Below, piece by piece: positions 24,869 through 31,679 of a stretch of 64,000 nt of DNA (its first letter is position 1; every line of letters starts with the position of its first letter). The stretch lies in the NCBI RefSeq assembly GCF_002210295.1, contig NZ_MWQH01000001.1, positions 372,001 to 436,000 of the forward strand, given 5' to 3'. The notes below the pieces were generated by a model, which saw only the letters and a program-made list of their open reading frames with translations, had not been told where the DNA came from and ran no database searches. A program made the position numbers and the translations under genes. The stretch is from Fibrobacter sp. UWB5 (GTDB lineage: Bacteria; Fibrobacterota; Fibrobacteria; Fibrobacterales; Fibrobacteraceae).

Positions 24869-26206
24869 ATGACCATGGATACACCCTTTATTCGCCCCAG
24901 TCATATTCAGATTCCTGCTTTGAAGTCTTATAACGGTGAACTTCGCGTGCCGGGTTCCAAAAGTATTACCAACCGAGTGCTTTTGATTTCGGCCCTTGCT
25001 GAAGGGACCACCCGCTTGCACAACTTGTTGAAAAGCGATGATACCCGCTATATGGGCGAGGCTTTAAAGGCGCTCGGTGTCAAGGCCGAAATGACCGATG
25101 ACTTTACCGAAGCCGTCATCGAAGGCAACGGGGCTCCTATCGATGCTCCGTCGGTCCTGATGGAAAACGACAACTACGTGGCAGGTCTTTATCTGGGTAA
25201 TGCGGGCACGGCCATGCGCTCCCTGTGTGCGGCCTTGGCTCTTGGTCGCGGCGTGTTCCACCTGAGCGGTGAAGAACGCATGAAGGAACGCCCGATTCGC
25301 GACTTGGTCGATGCTCTTAGATCGCTTGGCGCCGACATCGACTACATGGAAACTGAGGGTTTCCCGCCGGTATGCATTAACGCTCACGGTTTGAAGGGTG
25401 GCTCGGTGTCTGTTCGCGGAAACATTTCGAGCCAGTACCTCACGGCGCTTTTGATTTGTGCCCCGTATGCAGAATCTCCGCTCCACATTCATGTGGAAGG
25501 CGATTTGATTTCTGCTCCGTACATTTTGCTGACGCTTGATGTCATGAAACAGTTCGGTATCGAAGTCAAGCATGCCGATCTCAAGGAATTTTATGTGCCC
25601 AAGGGCGTGTACAAGACTCCGGGCGACTACATGGTCGAAGGCGATGCCAGTTCGGCCAGCTATCCGCTAGCCGCCGCTGCCATTGCGGGCGGCAAGGTGC
25701 GTGTGCTTGGCGTGGGTAGCGATTGCCGTCAGGGCGATATCGCTTTTGTCGACGTGCTCAAGAAGATGGGCGCCAACATTACCATGGGCCCCGATTGGAC
25801 CGAATGCACGGGCGTGGGCGGCAAGCTCAAGAGCCTGGGTGAATTCAACGCCATCGAGATTCCCGATGCGGCCATGACGGTTGCAGTACTCGCCCTGTTT
25901 GCCGACGCCCCCATGACCATTACGGGCATTGCCAGCTGGCGTGTCAAGGAAACGGACCGCATTGCGGCCATGGCGGCTGAACTACGCAAGGTGGGCGCCG
26001 AAGTCCGCGAAACGACGGATTCCATTACGATTACGCCTCCGGAACACTTGCAGCCCGCCACAATCGAAACCTACAACGACCACCGCATGGCCATGTGCTT
26101 CAGCTTGGTCGCCTTGGGCGGTGTTCCGATCAAGATTATGGATCCGGCTTGCATTAACAAGACGTATCCGCGCTACTTTGAAGACTTTTTGAGAATTGCC
26201 CAATAG
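24869..26206 (+). CDS. aroA: 3-phosphoshikimate 1-carboxyvinyltransferase (EPSP synthase)
   Basis: The product is 445 residues. The shikimate-phosphate-binding PGSKSITNR (Lys31) is near the N-terminus, LGNAGTAMR and GEERMKERPIRDL follow, and the C-terminal YNDHRMAM motif is present. The enzyme joins shikimate-3-phosphate and phosphoenolpyruvate in aromatic amino acid synthesis. There is no ribosome site. A TAAATTTA sequence overlaps the first ATG, so the second ATG at 24875, 5 bases after that box, may be the real start of a leaderless mRNA. The solute-binding protein gene follows after 25 bp. Confidence 0.97.
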   Translation: MTMDTPFIRPSHIQIPALKSYNGELRVPGSKSITNRVLLISALAEGTTRLHNLLKSDDTRYMGEALKALGVKAEMTDDFTEAVIEGNGAPIDAPSVLMENDNYVAGLYLGNAGTAMRSLCAALALGRGVFHLSGEERMKERPIRDLVDALRSLGADIDYMETEGFPPVCINAHGLKGGSVSVRGNISSQYLTALLICAPYAESPLHIHVEGDLISAPYILLTLDVMKQFGIEVKHADLKEFYVPKGVYKTPGDYMVEGDASSASYPLAAAAIAGGKVRVLGVGSDCRQGDIAFVDVLKKMGANITMGPDWTECTGVGGKLKSLGEFNAIEIPDAAMTVAVLALFADAPMTITGIASWRVKETDRIAAMAAELRKVGAEVRETTDSITITPPEHLQPATIETYNDHRMAMCFSLVALGGVPIKIMDPACINKTYPRYFEDFLRIAQ

Positions 26207-26231: not shown

Positions 26232-27803
26232 ATGTTCAAGCGTATTTGTAGCATAGCCTTGTTCGTAAGTCTCGCCCTGGGCGGGGTGACCGCACATGCT
26301 ATGCCGGAACTGAAGGCCATGCCGACACCTCCCGATACGCTTGTGCTTTGGGTGATGGACCAGGATATCAATGCTGGCGCCGCTCTCCAGAAACTCATGA
26401 AAAAGTACACGCGCCAAAGCGGAACTCCGGTCAAGATCCGATTCGTGGATTGGGGAGTCGCCTTCGCCGAACTCAACAAGGTCTTGGTAACCGAAGCTGG
26501 CCCGGGGACCGATTTTCCGGATGTGTTGCAGTTGGGCTCGAGCTGGGTGCCGTATTTTGCCAAGGCGGGCATGATTAACCCTGTCACAGAATTGTTAGAC
26601 GCTGTCGATACAAGTCGCTTTTATCCGGAGGCCATGAAATCTGGCCATATCGGTCGCGATACTCTGGTGTACTCGATTCCGTGGTTCCTCGACATTCGTG
26701 GATTCTTCGCGAACGAACGCATTTGGTTGGAACTGGGACTGCATGATTCCGAAATCGAAACTTACCCGCAGTTCTTTGGCGTGCTCCGGGCCATTTCGGA
26801 AGCCAAGGTGACTAACCGGCAAGATGTTGAGGTGGTGCCGTTTGAATTTGGCGTGAAGGACGACTGGACGGGCTATCAGCAGATGTCTCCGTTCCTCTGG
26901 AATTACGGCGGTGACTTCGTTGCAGAAGTCGATGGCGGTTACCGCAGTGCCCTGGCTGACCCTTTGACGCTGGTGGGACTTTGTTTTTATTTGAAATTGT
27001 TGCGCGACCATGACGTATCGCCGTACAACCTCAAGGAAAATTCGGCCCAGAGTGCAGACCGCTTTGTGCGTTCCGAACAGTTGATGATTTTTGGTACGTC
27101 CGAATTGATCCGCAAAATTGAATTCGACACGGAAATGGGCGGCTTGAGAGATAGCCCGCTCGCCAAAGACGGCTTGATTACGGTGACCGGTCCCAAGGGC
27201 CCGTACGGCAATTTCTCGTTTGTGGGCGGAAGCCATTTGACGCTCCCGAAGAACAGCAACCCGATCAAGCATGCAAAGGCCCGCGACTTGTTCCTGTTCA
27301 TGCTCCGTGCAGACAATATCGATTTCTATTCTAGACAGTGCGGCTTCATTCCGCCCGACAAGAGCTTGATTCGAATCTGGATGCAGGATCCTCGCTACAA
27401 TCATTTGATTGACGGACTTGAAAATCATGGCCGTAGCTGTCAGAACATTCCGGAATGGAGTGAAATCGAAATGACGGTGAACGGCATGGTGTCTGCCATT
27501 GCGGCGGCCTTGCTCAAGCAAGATTCTTCCGTGAATGAAGAAATTGCACGTCTCGTGTTCGATACGCACCAGAAAATCAATGGCATTTTGGGGTACAAAG
27601 ACCCCGAAACGGAATCCGCTGTAAAGCGCCGTATTCTTGCGGCTTTGGAAACCCCGGTCGAAGAAACCAAGTACGAAAAGGGTTTCGGTTCGGTCAGCGG
27701 ACAGTCTGAATTTAGCTTGCGGCTTATTGTGGTGATCTCTTTGGGAGCTGTTGCGGTCGTGCTATTGTTGGTGTTCTCTATTCGTCGTTTCCGCAAGCGC
27801 TAA
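26232..27803 (+). CDS. Extracellular solute-binding protein with C-terminal membrane anchor
   Basis: The protein is 523 residues. A signal peptide (cleavage near TAHA-MPE) is followed by a type-1 solute-binding fold. Features seen are LVLWVMDQDINAGAALQKLMKKY, DVLQLGSSWVPYFAKAGM, YSIPWFLDIRGFFANE and GNFSFVGGSHLTLPKNS, as in sugar-binding proteins of ABC importers. Unusually, a C-terminal membrane segment (LIVVISLGAVAVVLLLVFSI) and a basic RRFRKR tail follow. No permease or ATPase gene is nearby. It may be an anchored binding protein or a sensor-like component. The next gene starts 4 bp after the stop, so the two are coupled. Confidence 0.82.
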   Translation: MFKRICSIALFVSLALGGVTAHAMPELKAMPTPPDTLVLWVMDQDINAGAALQKLMKKYTRQSGTPVKIRFVDWGVAFAELNKVLVTEAGPGTDFPDVLQLGSSWVPYFAKAGMINPVTELLDAVDTSRFYPEAMKSGHIGRDTLVYSIPWFLDIRGFFANERIWLELGLHDSEIETYPQFFGVLRAISEAKVTNRQDVEVVPFEFGVKDDWTGYQQMSPFLWNYGGDFVAEVDGGYRSALADPLTLVGLCFYLKLLRDHDVSPYNLKENSAQSADRFVRSEQLMIFGTSELIRKIEFDTEMGGLRDSPLAKDGLITVTGPKGPYGNFSFVGGSHLTLPKNSNPIKHAKARDLFLFMLRADNIDFYSRQCGFIPPDKSLIRIWMQDPRYNHLIDGLENHGRSCQNIPEWSEIEMTVNGMVSAIAAALLKQDSSVNEEIARLVFDTHQKINGILGYKDPETESAVKRRILAALETPVEETKYEKGFGSVSGQSEFSLRLIVVISLGAVAVVLLLVFSIRRFRKR

Positions 27804-27807
27804 AATT

Positions 27808-29943
27808 ATGCGAAATATTTTTGCTTTAATTGGATTATTTGCAACTGTCGCTCTAGCCAATTTTCAATTGGATTCATTCCAGGTGTACGTAGACTCGGTG
27901 GTGCCTGGCGCCCGCTACGGACTTTCGATTCGCTCGGTCAAGACCGGCAATGAAATCGGTAACATTCGCGGTGGCGAAAAGTTTACTCCTGCAAGTACGC
28001 TCAAGACTTTGACGACGGCGGCGGCTGTGCATTTCTTGCCGCTCGATTATGCGCCCAAGACCCAAGTTTCTTTGAACGGTAGCGTGCGCAAGAAAACTTT
28101 TGTCGGAATCATCAATGTCCGCGGTGCGGGCGATCCGAATTTTTCGGGCCGCTATTATGCTGACCCGTTCCACATGCTGTATGCAATGGCCGATTCCATT
28201 CATGCTTTGGGCATTGATTCCGTTTCGGGTAAGATTGACCTGGATTCCAGCTATTACAAGGGTCCGTGGCGCGCTGAACACTGGCGCAAGAATTTTTATG
28301 ATGCCTGGTACGGTGCCGAAATTGCGCCGCTCGGTTTTAACGACAACTGCACCATGATCCGCTTTAAGCCGGGTGCAAAAGTGGGCGAACTGGCTCGTGC
28401 CGAGGTTGTGCCCGACGTTGGCTATGTCGTCTTGAAAAATGAAATGGTGACGGTTCCGGGTAAAAAGCGCAAGTGGACTTGGGCGCTTGATTCTGCAAAG
28501 CCCGAAATCACGATCGGTGGCGCCATCGGTATCGGTGTGGATTCTAGCCAGCTGGTGCTCCCGGTGCGCAACCCGATTGCCTACTTTAAGGCAGCCTTCA
28601 TTCACGCTCTCAAGGAACGCGGAATTGCTTTTATGGAACAGCCCAATGTGCAAGAGGGAATCCAGATTGCCTCTTATACTTATTCGGCGGCACCCTTCTT
28701 GAGCTTTCTCGACGAAATCAATCAGCGCAGCCAGAACTTGCATGCCGAAACCATCTTCCGCAATCTGGGAGCCCAAAAGACGGGTGTGGGAAGTGTTGAA
28801 AGCGGCCGCGCCATGGAAATGAAATTCCTTGCCGAAATGGGAATTGATTCTACGGATTTTGAAGTCTGGGACGGTTGCGGACTTTCGCCCAAGAACAAGG
28901 TGAAGCCTTCTACCGAAACCAAGTTGCTTGCCAAGATGGCTCGCCACCCCAAGGGCAGCTATTACATCAACAGCTTTGCTGGCCCTGGAATCGGTACCGG
29001 CGGCAAGCGTATGCTGGATTTGCCGTACCCCTGGCTCACTCGATTCAAGACGGGCTTTATTGGCGAAGTCCACGGCTTGGTCGGTTACATTTATACGCTC
29101 GATGGCGATACCCTTGCGGTGGCCATGTACTTTAACGAAACGGGCAAGAATCCGGATGCGCAACTCAAGGACGCGCTCGATACTTTGTGGACCCGTCTCG
29201 TTTACAGCGCAAATGACAGCTACGCCTCGTTCATGAAAATGAAGCAGATGTGGCTCGGTGCGCAGAATGTGGCCGGTCTTACTGCAAGGCTTGAATATTT
29301 CTCTCGCCTCATGAAGGGGACTCCTTACAAGCTTGGCCCCATGGGCGAAAGCTATCTGGATTCTATTGAGAATAAACCGCTGGTGTACATGGATTCGGTC
29401 GACTGCGTGACGTACCTGGAACATGCGCTTGCGATGGCCTTGTCGCCGAACGAAAACGAAATCTTCAATACGCTCCAGAAGATCCGCTACAAGGGCGGTA
29501 AAATCGGTTACGTGAATCGCAAACATTACCTGTTGGCAGATTGGGTGGCCGATGGCAAGTATGCTCGCGTCATGCAGGTTCCGGGTGACACCGTTATCAA
29601 GCGTACCATTCCCAAGCAAGATTTCTTCAAGGCGAAAAAGATCAAGTACGATACTCCCGATGCTCCGATGGATTTGCGCTACTTGCCATACAATCGGGCG
29701 ATGGAACTGGCGTCTAAACCTTACGAAGGCCCGCTCATGGTAACAGGCGTTGCCTTTGTTGCCGGCGCGAACAATCTGGATGCGACGCATACGGGCTTTG
29801 TCATTTTCCGTAACGGCGAACTTCCGAAGTTGCGTCACGCAGCCTTCAAAAAGCACGTGATTGAATTGACTTTGAAAGATTACTTGGCGAGCCGCAAAGG
29901 CAAGCTCCCGGGAATCACTCTGTTCGAATTCTTAAAACAATAA
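27808..29943 (+). CDS. PBP4-type D-Ala-D-Ala carboxypeptidase fused to DUF1460
   Basis: ATG 27808 follows the previous stop by 4 bp and gives 711 residues with a signal peptide (ALA-NFQ). Residues about 20-485 are a peptidase S13 (DacB/PBP4) domain: SxxK in PASTLK (Ser63, Lys66), SQN in QRSQNLHAE, and KTG in RFKTGFIGEVHG. Residues about 495-710 are a DUF1460 domain (MDSVDCVTYLEHALAMAL with the likely catalytic Cys, then a His-containing TGFV segment). DUF1460 is an NlpC/P60-like amidase family. The fusion would put two peptidoglycan stem-peptide cutting activities in one periplasmic protein. The S13 serine residues look intact. Confidence 0.87.
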   Translation: MRNIFALIGLFATVALANFQLDSFQVYVDSVVPGARYGLSIRSVKTGNEIGNIRGGEKFTPASTLKTLTTAAAVHFLPLDYAPKTQVSLNGSVRKKTFVGIINVRGAGDPNFSGRYYADPFHMLYAMADSIHALGIDSVSGKIDLDSSYYKGPWRAEHWRKNFYDAWYGAEIAPLGFNDNCTMIRFKPGAKVGELARAEVVPDVGYVVLKNEMVTVPGKKRKWTWALDSAKPEITIGGAIGIGVDSSQLVLPVRNPIAYFKAAFIHALKERGIAFMEQPNVQEGIQIASYTYSAAPFLSFLDEINQRSQNLHAETIFRNLGAQKTGVGSVESGRAMEMKFLAEMGIDSTDFEVWDGCGLSPKNKVKPSTETKLLAKMARHPKGSYYINSFAGPGIGTGGKRMLDLPYPWLTRFKTGFIGEVHGLVGYIYTLDGDTLAVAMYFNETGKNPDAQLKDALDTLWTRLVYSANDSYASFMKMKQMWLGAQNVAGLTARLEYFSRLMKGTPYKLGPMGESYLDSIENKPLVYMDSVDCVTYLEHALAMALSPNENEIFNTLQKIRYKGGKIGYVNRKHYLLADWVADGKYARVMQVPGDTVIKRTIPKQDFFKAKKIKYDTPDAPMDLRYLPYNRAMELASKPYEGPLMVTGVAFVAGANNLDATHTGFVIFRNGELPKLRHAAFKKHVIELTLKDYLASRKGKLPGITLFEFLKQ

Positions 29944-30004: not shown

Positions 30005-30475
30005 TTATTCCCCCAAATCAAACGCAAGAATCGCGACGAGTTCGTGCTCGCCCGCGTTAGTGTGCACGCCGCCTTCATCACCCTGCGGCTCCTTTTCGAA
30101 CAAAGTCCATGCATCCGGCATCCAACCGTAGGCCGCCATGGTGAGTTCCTTGCCGATGGCAATTTCGGCGGCTTCTACCTCTTCCCAGCGCACGGGGCCT
30201 GTGGGTGCCTTGTAGTAGCGCAGCATTCCCAGCGCTTCCATGGATTCCGGGTAATTGTCTACCAGCTGGTAAACGCAATCCTTGTAGCTTTCGCCCTTCA
30301 GGCGGATGACGCGGTAAAGCCGCTTGTGACCCAGGAATTTAGAGAGGTCGCCGTGGTGAACGTCAATCTTGGAACCTTGCCCAAAGAATGTCATAAGCTC
30401 GCGGAAAATTTCCGAATCCTCTTCCATGAACGGGGAGAGTTTTTTAATAAGGGCGTTAACTTCGTTTGCGAGCAT
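30005..30475 (-). CDS. Hypothetical protein
   Basis: I choose MLANEVNALIKKL at 30475 because the longer frame (to 30592) would run into dxr. The product is 156 residues, soluble, acidic, with no signal peptide or membrane segment. Features include HHGDLSKFLGHKRLYRVIRLKGES, YPESMEALGMLRYYKAP and a C-terminal NAGEHELVAILAFDLGE. I do not recognise the family. It is divergent from dxr with 55 bp of AT-rich sequence between, and has no clear ribosome site. Confidence 0.7.
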   Translation of the reverse strand: MLANEVNALIKKLSPFMEEDSEIFRELMTFFGQGSKIDVHHGDLSKFLGHKRLYRVIRLKGESYKDCVYQLVDNYPESMEALGMLRYYKAPTGPVRWEEVEAAEIAIGKELTMAAYGWMPDAWTLFEKEPQGDEGGVHTNAGEHELVAILAFDLGE

Positions 30476-30530
30476 GTTTAAATAATAGATATTTTTTATC
30501 TTTTTACCTGTATAAAAAAGAGGCTTCAAA

Positions 30531-31679
30531 ATGAAAAACGTAGTTCTTCTCGGTGCGACCGGTTCTATCGGTACTTCTAGCGTCGATGTCATTCACCAGC
30601 ATTCCGATATCTTTAATCTTTACGCCGTTGCAGCAAACAGCAGTGTAGCGAAGGTTGCCGAAATCGTGCGCAAGTACAAGGTTGAACGCGTGTGCATGTT
30701 CGACCCGAATGCTGCGAAGGAACTTGAAAAAGAAATCGGCATGAAGGTGCTCGCCGGCATGGAAGGCCTGTGCGAACTCGCTGCCGACCCGAAGGCCGAC
30801 ATTATCATCAACTCGCTGATGGGTGCCGTGGGTTGCCTCCCGACCATTACCGCTATCGAACACGGCAAGCATGTGGCTCTCGCCAACAAAGAAACCATGG
30901 TCATGGCAGGCCCTGTGATCTGGGATAAGCTTGCCGAAAATCCGAAGTCCTTCATCACGCCGATTGACTCCGAACACAGCGCTATCTTCCAGTGCCTCGA
31001 AGGTGGCAAGCGTGAATCCGAAGTCGAATTCCTTGAAATTACGGCATCCGGTGGCCCGTTCCGCGAATGGCCGATTGAAAAGTTTGAAAACATCACCGTG
31101 GCCGATGCCTTGAATCACCCGGTGTGGAGCATGGGCAAGAAGATTACCATCGACTCTGCTTCCATGATGAACAAGGGCCTCGAAGTTCTCGAAGCTCACT
31201 TCTTGTTCCACATTCCGTACGACCAGATCAAGGTGGTGGTTCACCCGCAGTCCATGGTGCATTCGCTGGTGCAGTTCCGCGACGGTTCCCTCATGGCCCA
31301 GCTCGGCGCTCCTGACATGCGCATCCCGATTCAGGTAGCGCTCACGTGGCCGGATCGCTTGAAGCTCGATACCAAGCGCATTGATCTGCCGACCCTTGCG
31401 AAGCTGACCTTCTTCGAGCCGGACTTCAACAAGTTCCGTTGCCTTGCGCTCGCTTTTGAAGCCGGCCGCCGCGGCGGTATCGTGCCTGCCATGATGAATG
31501 CTGCAAACGAAGTCCTCGTTGACGCCTTCCTTAAAGGTAACCTCAAGTTTACCGACATCCCGCGCCATGTGGAAACGATTATGGCCGGTGCCCCGAACGT
31601 GACGGGTCACTTGACGCTTGACCAGGTGCTTGAAGCCGACGCCGAAGCCCGTCGCCTGACGCTCGACCTGATCAAGTAA
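30531..31679 (+). CDS. dxr: 1-deoxy-D-xylulose 5-phosphate reductoisomerase
   Basis: The product is 382 residues. The NADPH-binding LGATGSIG (7-14) is followed by ALANKETMVMAG, the metal/substrate segment PIDSEHSAIFQCL, ITASGGPFR, NHPVWSMGKKITIDSASMMNKGLEVLEAH and VVHPQSMVHSLVQF. It makes 2-C-methyl-D-erythritol 4-phosphate, the committed step of the MEP isoprenoid pathway. Ribosome site AGAGG lies upstream of the ATG. In many bacteria dxr lies between cdsA and rseP. Here cdsA is 20 kb away and rseP 9 kb away, with a cellulase locus between dxr and rseP. Confidence 0.98.
   Translation: MKNVVLLGATGSIGTSSVDVIHQHSDIFNLYAVAANSSVAKVAEIVRKYKVERVCMFDPNAAKELEKEIGMKVLAGMEGLCELAADPKADIIINSLMGAVGCLPTITAIEHGKHVALANKETMVMAGPVIWDKLAENPKSFITPIDSEHSAIFQCLEGGKRESEVEFLEITASGGPFREWPIEKFENITVADALNHPVWSMGKKITIDSASMMNKGLEVLEAHFLFHIPYDQIKVVVHPQSMVHSLVQFRDGSLMAQLGAPDMRIPIQVALTWPDRLKLDTKRIDLPTLAKLTFFEPDFNKFRCLALAFEAGRRGGIVPAMMNAANEVLVDAFLKGNLKFTDIPRHVETIMAGAPNVTGHLTLDQVLEADAEARRLTLDLIK

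Follow-up and report, generated by a model that had tools for sequence, protein, structure and literature searches.

Among the genes of Fibrobacter sp. UWB5 we found one that joins two cell-wall enzymes in a single reading frame. It lies in a stretch of 64,000 nucleotides (contig NZ_MWQH01000001.1, positions 372,001 to 436,000), here called the window, to which all coordinates below refer unless a locus is named. Its product carries a Peptidase_S13 domain of the PBP4 type in the front half and an AmiA-like (DUF1460) cysteine amidase domain in the back half. We consider it probable that this protein is a secreted, probably periplasmic enzyme with two active sites, which would convert fragments of wall turnover to free peptides and bare disaccharides. 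The original prediction, made from the DNA letters, had proposed such a fusion, a case that would be weakened if the fusion were common and already characterised. It is near-universal in the sampled genomes of one class of bacteria, and our surveys met it nowhere else. The features of the gene are as follows.

27808..29943, plus strand: PBP4 (S13)–AmiA (DUF1460) fusion gene, open reading frame from ATG, 711 aa
27808..27861, plus strand: apparent Sec signal peptide, residues 1 to about 18 (MRNIFALIGLFATVALAN), lacking a lipobox Cys; translation read by eye
27892..29193, plus strand: Peptidase_S13 / PBP4 domain, residues 29–462; Pfam PF02113, TIGR00666 and PDB chains 1w5d, 1w79 and 2ex2 matched
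27994..28005, plus strand: SxxK motif S63-T-L-K66, with S63 as the nucleophile; alignment A2
28729..28737, plus strand: SxN motif S308-Q-N310; alignment A2
29047..29055, plus strand: KTG motif K414-T-G416; alignment A2
29194..29298, plus strand: inter-domain stretch, residues 463–497, about 35 aa between both Pfam matches; Pfam bounds
29299..29901, plus strand: AmiA-like (DUF1460) cysteine amidase domain, residues 498–698; PF07313 and structure model
29404..29406, plus strand: predicted catalytic Cys533, in D532-C533-V-T-Y-L-E-H-A-L; column conservation
29788..29790, plus strand: predicted catalytic His661; column conservation
29836..29838, plus strand: predicted third residue of the triad, His677; H, N or D among the fusions

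Two enzyme domains with conserved catalytic motifs

Alignment A2 draws its 24 fusions from the families f1, f2 and f3, and a Pfam scan matched both Peptidase_S13 and AmiA-like in all 24. In the window protein the Peptidase_S13 match scored 213.5 bits against a cut-off of 22.8 (E 6.5e-63), and the PBP4 equivalog TIGR00666 of NCBIfam 173.6 bits against 107.8. The residues S63, K66, S308, N310 and K414-T-G416 are invariant in the 24 aligned fusions, and the long insert between the SxxK and SxN motifs, which belongs to S13 / PBP4 enzymes, is present. When compared with PDB sequences, the front half matched S13 enzymes and the back half DUF1460 proteins. The motifs SxxK, SxN and KTG as well as the TIGR00666 match are shared with the PBP4 / DacB family of S13 enzymes (E. 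coli PBP4, 2EX2; B. subtilis DacC, 1W5D; 1W79); the solved chains are however 453–489 aa long, about the S13 module alone, whereas the fusion carries a second enzyme after it. The serine half would be expected to act as a DD-carboxypeptidase or endopeptidase, and the apparent signal peptide suggests export of the whole protein, probably to the periplasm.

For the back half, the domain search confirmed the predicted DUF1460 assignment (98.1 bits against a cut-off of 27, E 6.4e-28). We take the AmiA-like family PF07313 to be the former DUF1460, as the PDB title of 2IM9 also equates the two. The motifs Ser63-xx-Lys66, SQN, KTG and DCVTYLEHAL, by which both halves had been recognized, all lie where the prediction had placed them. 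We compared alignment columns between 47 fusions (45 distinct) and 97 rows of free-standing DUF1460 proteins (95 distinct). Cys533 is a cysteine in every row of both sets, and His661 a histidine in all 47 fusions and in 80 of the 97 free-standing proteins; 17 of these 97 rows are cut short, at less than 150 aa. Both residues are invariant in alignment A2. Position 677 is more variable among the fusions (42 H, 4 N, 1 D) and is H in the window protein. The residues C533, E538, R560, R571 and H573 are identical throughout both sets, so that a core DC.T...E...RY...R.H...H is common to fused and free proteins. For DUF1460, the consulted part of PMC10318531 describes a catalytic CHH triad. Decay of the second domain is ruled out, as its catalytic motifs are kept.

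An AlphaFold model of the amidase half, built with 38 relatives, reached a predicted local distance difference test score (pLDDT) of 84.3. Its best structural match was B. uniformis AmiA BACUNI_02947 (4Q68; Z 24.5, 2.4 Å, 211 residues), and the five top matches were all DUF1460 entries (Z 22.7–24.5) while other NlpC/P60 proteins stayed at Z ≤10.6. The model thus places this half in the papain-like DUF1460 fold. BACUNI_02947, the nearest solved entry, is named an N-acetylmuramoyl-L-alanine amidase, and we infer amidase activity for the fused domain. This changes one part of the original prediction, which had suggested that both halves trim the stem peptide in two steps. Trimming or uncrosslinking by one half is retained, but the other half would be expected to detach the peptide from the sugar, because the nearest solved DUF1460 protein is named as an amidase of the sugar-peptide bond.

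Conservation of the fusion within the class

Sampling of the phylum gave 120 genomes, 79 in the class of the window (49 from the same genus, 17 from the same family, 2 from the same order and 11 sharing the class) and 41 in other classes. The whole fusion is present in one frame in 76 of the 79. The other three are G103, in which the match reaches residue 568 at a contig edge with the remainder on another contig, G106, where the gene is cut off by the end of a contig at about residue 230, and G108, which has a free-standing DUF1460 gene (L041) and an S13 gene on a different contig (L141). PF07313 itself was matched in 78 of the 79 class genomes (not in G106) and in one of the 41 genomes of other classes (G073). 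Recurrence of the one-frame fusion in so many genomes makes chance or assembly error unlikely, and we ruled out a frameshift or assembly artefact on these grounds.

The same conservation bears on the possibility that the fusion mainly degrades the peptidoglycan of other bacteria after secretion, for scavenging or antagonism. The apparent signal peptide would agree with such a role, and so would the dense communities in which fibrobacters are understood to live. However, the gene resembles a core gene in being single-copy, near-universal in the sampled class and conserved in gene order, and we regard this explanation as very improbable.

Search for the fusion outside the class

The proposal to look for the same fusion in other phyla was followed in three surveys, all of which were negative; S13 was sought here with a custom hidden Markov model built from the fusions. 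Among 395 Bacteroidota genomes, 145 had a DUF1460 match and no fusion was found among these genes; the frames read for S13 were three of at least 600 aa and one of 434 aa. Likewise, the DUF1460 matches listed for 395 Gemmatimonadota genomes (147 with a match) included no fusion; nine listed frames of at least 600 aa and three of 522–571 aa were read there. The third survey covered 80 DUF1460 loci from mixed phyla, the best 80 of 251 confirmed relatives, of which none was fused and none had S13 within the fetched stretch (≤5 kb on each side). The pattern used for this locus scan, DCVT[YF][LIV]E, does not extend to proteins such as 2IM9. Ten genomes with a free-standing DUF1460 gene were looked at for S13, and three of them have such a gene as well. 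Plasmid records matched the whole protein in 33 cases, none over more than 80% of its length, and the amidase half in 17 cases, of which the three viewed were all free-standing; two phage records matched the S13 part only. Pseudomonadota were covered mainly via plasmid records, their chromosomes lying outside the survey.

A different arrangement was seen in the Bacteroidota survey, where a 774-aa frame in genome G446 (L137:3423-5744, minus strand) combines phosphoglucomutase/phosphomannomutase with AmiA-like. The four phosphoglucomutase/phosphomannomutase domains occupy residues 11–449 and the AmiA-like domain residues 547–759, with a lipoprotein-like signal between them when read by eye. This may be another type of DUF1460 fusion, or a pair of genes that share one frame.

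Descent of the two halves

For the amidase tree we left out near copies from the same genus, together with 53 of the 80 mixed-phyla loci, and kept 62 rows. One branch (100/100) separates 29 fusions together with the free G108 protein from 32 free-standing proteins, most of which come from other phyla. The G108 amidase sits on a long branch inside the fusions, and the label fused or free needs two changes on this tree; a tree constrained to hold all fusions in one clade was equally good (approximately unbiased test, p 0.516). In view of this test and of the long branch, we did not take G108 to prove a secondary split. In the S13 tree, computed by a quick method, the 29 fusions form one clade (Shimodaira–Hasegawa-like approximate likelihood ratio test 100), to which none of the 20 free S13 enzymes belongs; we made no use of the deep order of this tree because long branches may meet there. 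Both trees are consistent with one fusion event.

The 20 free enzymes include extra copies from family f3, several genomes of which carry an additional free-standing S13 gene beside the fusion (L142, L143, L164-L169) that forms a clade of its own. The DUF1460 gene of G073, which belongs to another class of the phylum, is also free-standing (L042:4036-4977, minus strand); it groups with Bacteroidota proteins and was therefore possibly acquired from elsewhere.

Wall-recycling genes

In E. coli, as generally understood, the set AmpG-AmpD-NagZ-AnmK-Mpl handles the class of fragments on which the fusion would act, and the amidase step is cytoplasmic after import by AmpG; the fusion genomes, in contrast, have no detected AnmK or clear AmpG. 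A profile search for AnmK (PF03702) found none in the window's genome and none in any fusion genome. The only one of the 79 class genomes with a match was G108, with two partial matches of 24.6 bits (cut-off 24) and 20.6 bits, whereas a match was obtained in 33 of the 41 genomes from other classes, in 29 cases with at least 70 bits. The corresponding search for AmpG (TIGR00901) gave no match in the window's genome and no clear match in the fusion genomes. Three class genomes were matched: G108 clearly, but G070 and G091 only by weak partial matches of 25.1 and 22.9 bits. In the other classes there were matches in 14 of 41, 12 of them with at least 190 bits and none reaching the curated cut-off of 350. 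The Amidase_2 family, to which AmpD belongs, is present in 22 of the 79 class genomes and 39 of the 41 others. The window's genome is among the 22 with a copy of 49.5 bits, which scored 18.7 bits with the NCBI AmpD model (cut-off 143).

The best match of the window's genome in a search for Mpl (TIGR01081) was MurC (L173; 523 bits to TIGR01082). A second MurC-like ligase of this genome (contig C6, L174:312-1724, plus strand) scored 328.1 bits to TIGR01082, whose cut-off is 335.1, and it could be a divergent Mpl or recycling ligase.

Proposed function

The mechanism we propose for the fusion would begin with lytic transglycosylases, which release anhydro-muropeptides. The S13 half would strip terminal D-Ala and/or cut cross-links between D-Ala and meso-diaminopimelic acid, and the DUF1460 half would then cut the (anhydro)MurNAc-L-Ala bond of the released, uncrosslinked fragment, so that short peptides and bare disaccharides would be set free outside the cytoplasm. 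Which of the cuts comes first is presumed here, as is the choice of anhydro-muropeptides as the natural substrate. As only about 35 residues separate the two Pfam matches, a hand-over between the active sites is possible. As neither AnmK nor a clear AmpG was detected in the fusion genomes, the fragments would be processed in the periplasm and not after their import; the pattern of recycling genes fits processing before import but does not show it.

Several points weigh against the proposed function. Firstly, 29 of the 41 genomes of other classes are without a near full-length AmpG match, and its absence is therefore not special to the fusion genomes. Mpl was above cut-off in none of the 120 genomes. 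The control genome Bacteroides ihuae has PF07313, Amidase_2 and AnmK together, so DUF1460 is not a general substitute for the route of AmpG and AnmK. Furthermore, the distribution of AnmK and Amidase_2 cannot be separated from phylogeny, as a single class offers few independent events. Finally, the fused amidase clade is long-branched both in the amidase tree and in a second tree of 39 rows, its domains differ from free DUF1460 proteins around residues 510–514, 524 and 676, and the specificity of AmiA may not carry over to it. BACUNI_02947 is reportedly specific for GlcNAc-1,6-anhMurNAc-peptide (N-acetylglucosaminyl-1,6-anhydro-N-acetylmuramyl peptide), which we treat as a lead only, the fused clade being separate and long-branched.

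From the last of these points arises the alternative that the amidase half, as a branch of its own, has another specificity, e.g. that of a DL-endopeptidase or for another amide. Before the catalytic Cys the fused domains mostly read LGPxGEG (LGPMGES in the window), while most of the 97 free rows read TL..E. The GEG stretch is shared with Legionella LPG0564 (2IM9, LGSLGEG), which was included in no tree, and with the Aquicella protein L179 (LEPLGEG); both are however without an S13 domain, and the latter is also without the His of the R-x-H motif. Long branches separate the fused domain from the Bacteroides-type enzymes, and in the 39-row tree L179 stands beside the fusions (98/95) on a long branch, with two other Pseudomonadota proteins (L177 and L178) on the far side. 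On the other hand, the core motif is the same, the predicted fold is closest to BACUNI_02947, and in plain sequence comparison B. fragilis 2P1G (7.6e-15) and 2IM9 (1.1e-14) rank level. With BACUNI_02947 (4H4J/4Q5K/4Q68) and 2P1G the fusion has the Pfam family, the predicted fold and the Cys-His-His core in common, although these chains are the amidase alone and the fused domain lacks the TL..E stretch of most free rows and lies on the separate clade. Taken together we think a different specificity quite unlikely, somewhat more so than the septal role considered next.

The amidase half may instead cut septal peptidoglycan in its polymeric, cross-linked form, which would make the fusion a hydrolase for cell separation or wall remodelling. 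Amidases and DD-endopeptidases are known to cooperate in the division of other bacteria, and profile searches found the fusion to be the single S13 and the single DUF1460 of the window's genome, as for a housekeeping function, while Amidase_2 is patchy in the class. The reported specificity for anhydro-muropeptides argues against this, and SPOR, LysM and other wall-binding domains were not found in any of the 24 aligned fusions (Pfam, E ≤0.001), in a scan where several rows began at the match start and the long N-terminal parts of f2 and f3 lay outside. We therefore hold a septal role to be unlikely and prefer processing of released fragments.

A bolder version of fragment processing is that the whole class gave up import-based recycling (AnmK, AmpG and mostly AmpD) and relies instead on a periplasmic bifunctional PBP4-amidase with hand-over between its active sites; G108, with its AmpG and its separate enzymes, would then be the exception that marks the link. 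It is weakened by the lack of AmpG in most genomes of other classes too, and strikes us as doubtful, about on a par with the septal role.

Neighbouring genes

Two genes precede the fusion on the same strand:

24869..26206, plus strand: aroA (EPSP synthase), conserved upstream neighbour; PF00275, E 2.9e-125
26232..27803, plus strand: solute-binding-protein gene with an apparent C-terminal transmembrane segment (by eye); PF01547/PF13416

A homologue of aroA is located upstream of the fusion in all eight f3 loci, both f2 loci and many of the f1 loci; it is often the immediate neighbour, and in some cases the solute-binding gene intervenes. It is a marker of synteny and stands outside the mechanism. 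The solute-binding gene ends 4 nt before the start codon of the fusion, and the two are probably co-transcribed. Its presence is patchy and limited to part of family f1; since many relatives have aroA directly upstream, we dropped it as a fixed partner. Downstream lies a gene for a 195-aa protein (30005-30592, minus strand) with no Pfam match, a homologue of which is found near the fusion in 27 of 31 loci of the genus and in three of the six other f1 loci (L043-L048). A mechanical list of open reading frames also holds a 660-aa frame antisense to the fusion gene (27874-29856, minus strand), which is most likely a by-product of codon bias.

Relation to known wall enzymes

The original prediction knew of no described example of this fusion, and none was met in the literature searched, as far as the consulted parts of the sources go (among them PMC10318531, PMC6851124, PMC8586454, PMC6483599, PMC7670621 and PMC12419801). 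For F. succinogenes, the portion of the envelope proteome study consulted (PMC6851124) reports that wall-turnover proteins are lower on cellulose and names no protein that could be equated with the fusion. CwlT combines a lysozyme with an NlpC/P60 DL-endopeptidase, according to a title cited in PMC6483599. Like this and other bifunctional wall hydrolases, the fusion has two wall-cutting domains in one protein; the pair of enzymes in CwlT is a different one, without an S13 peptidase. The fusion is a new combination of known enzymes.

It unites two steps of wall turnover, DD-peptidase and amidase, in one protein that is kept by a whole class, and it points to a class of bacteria without the textbook cytoplasmic recycling kinase. 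To us this recycling pattern is more interesting than the fusion alone. Muropeptides matter to host immunity, and their shedding would be relevant if these bacteria are, as we infer, gut dwellers.
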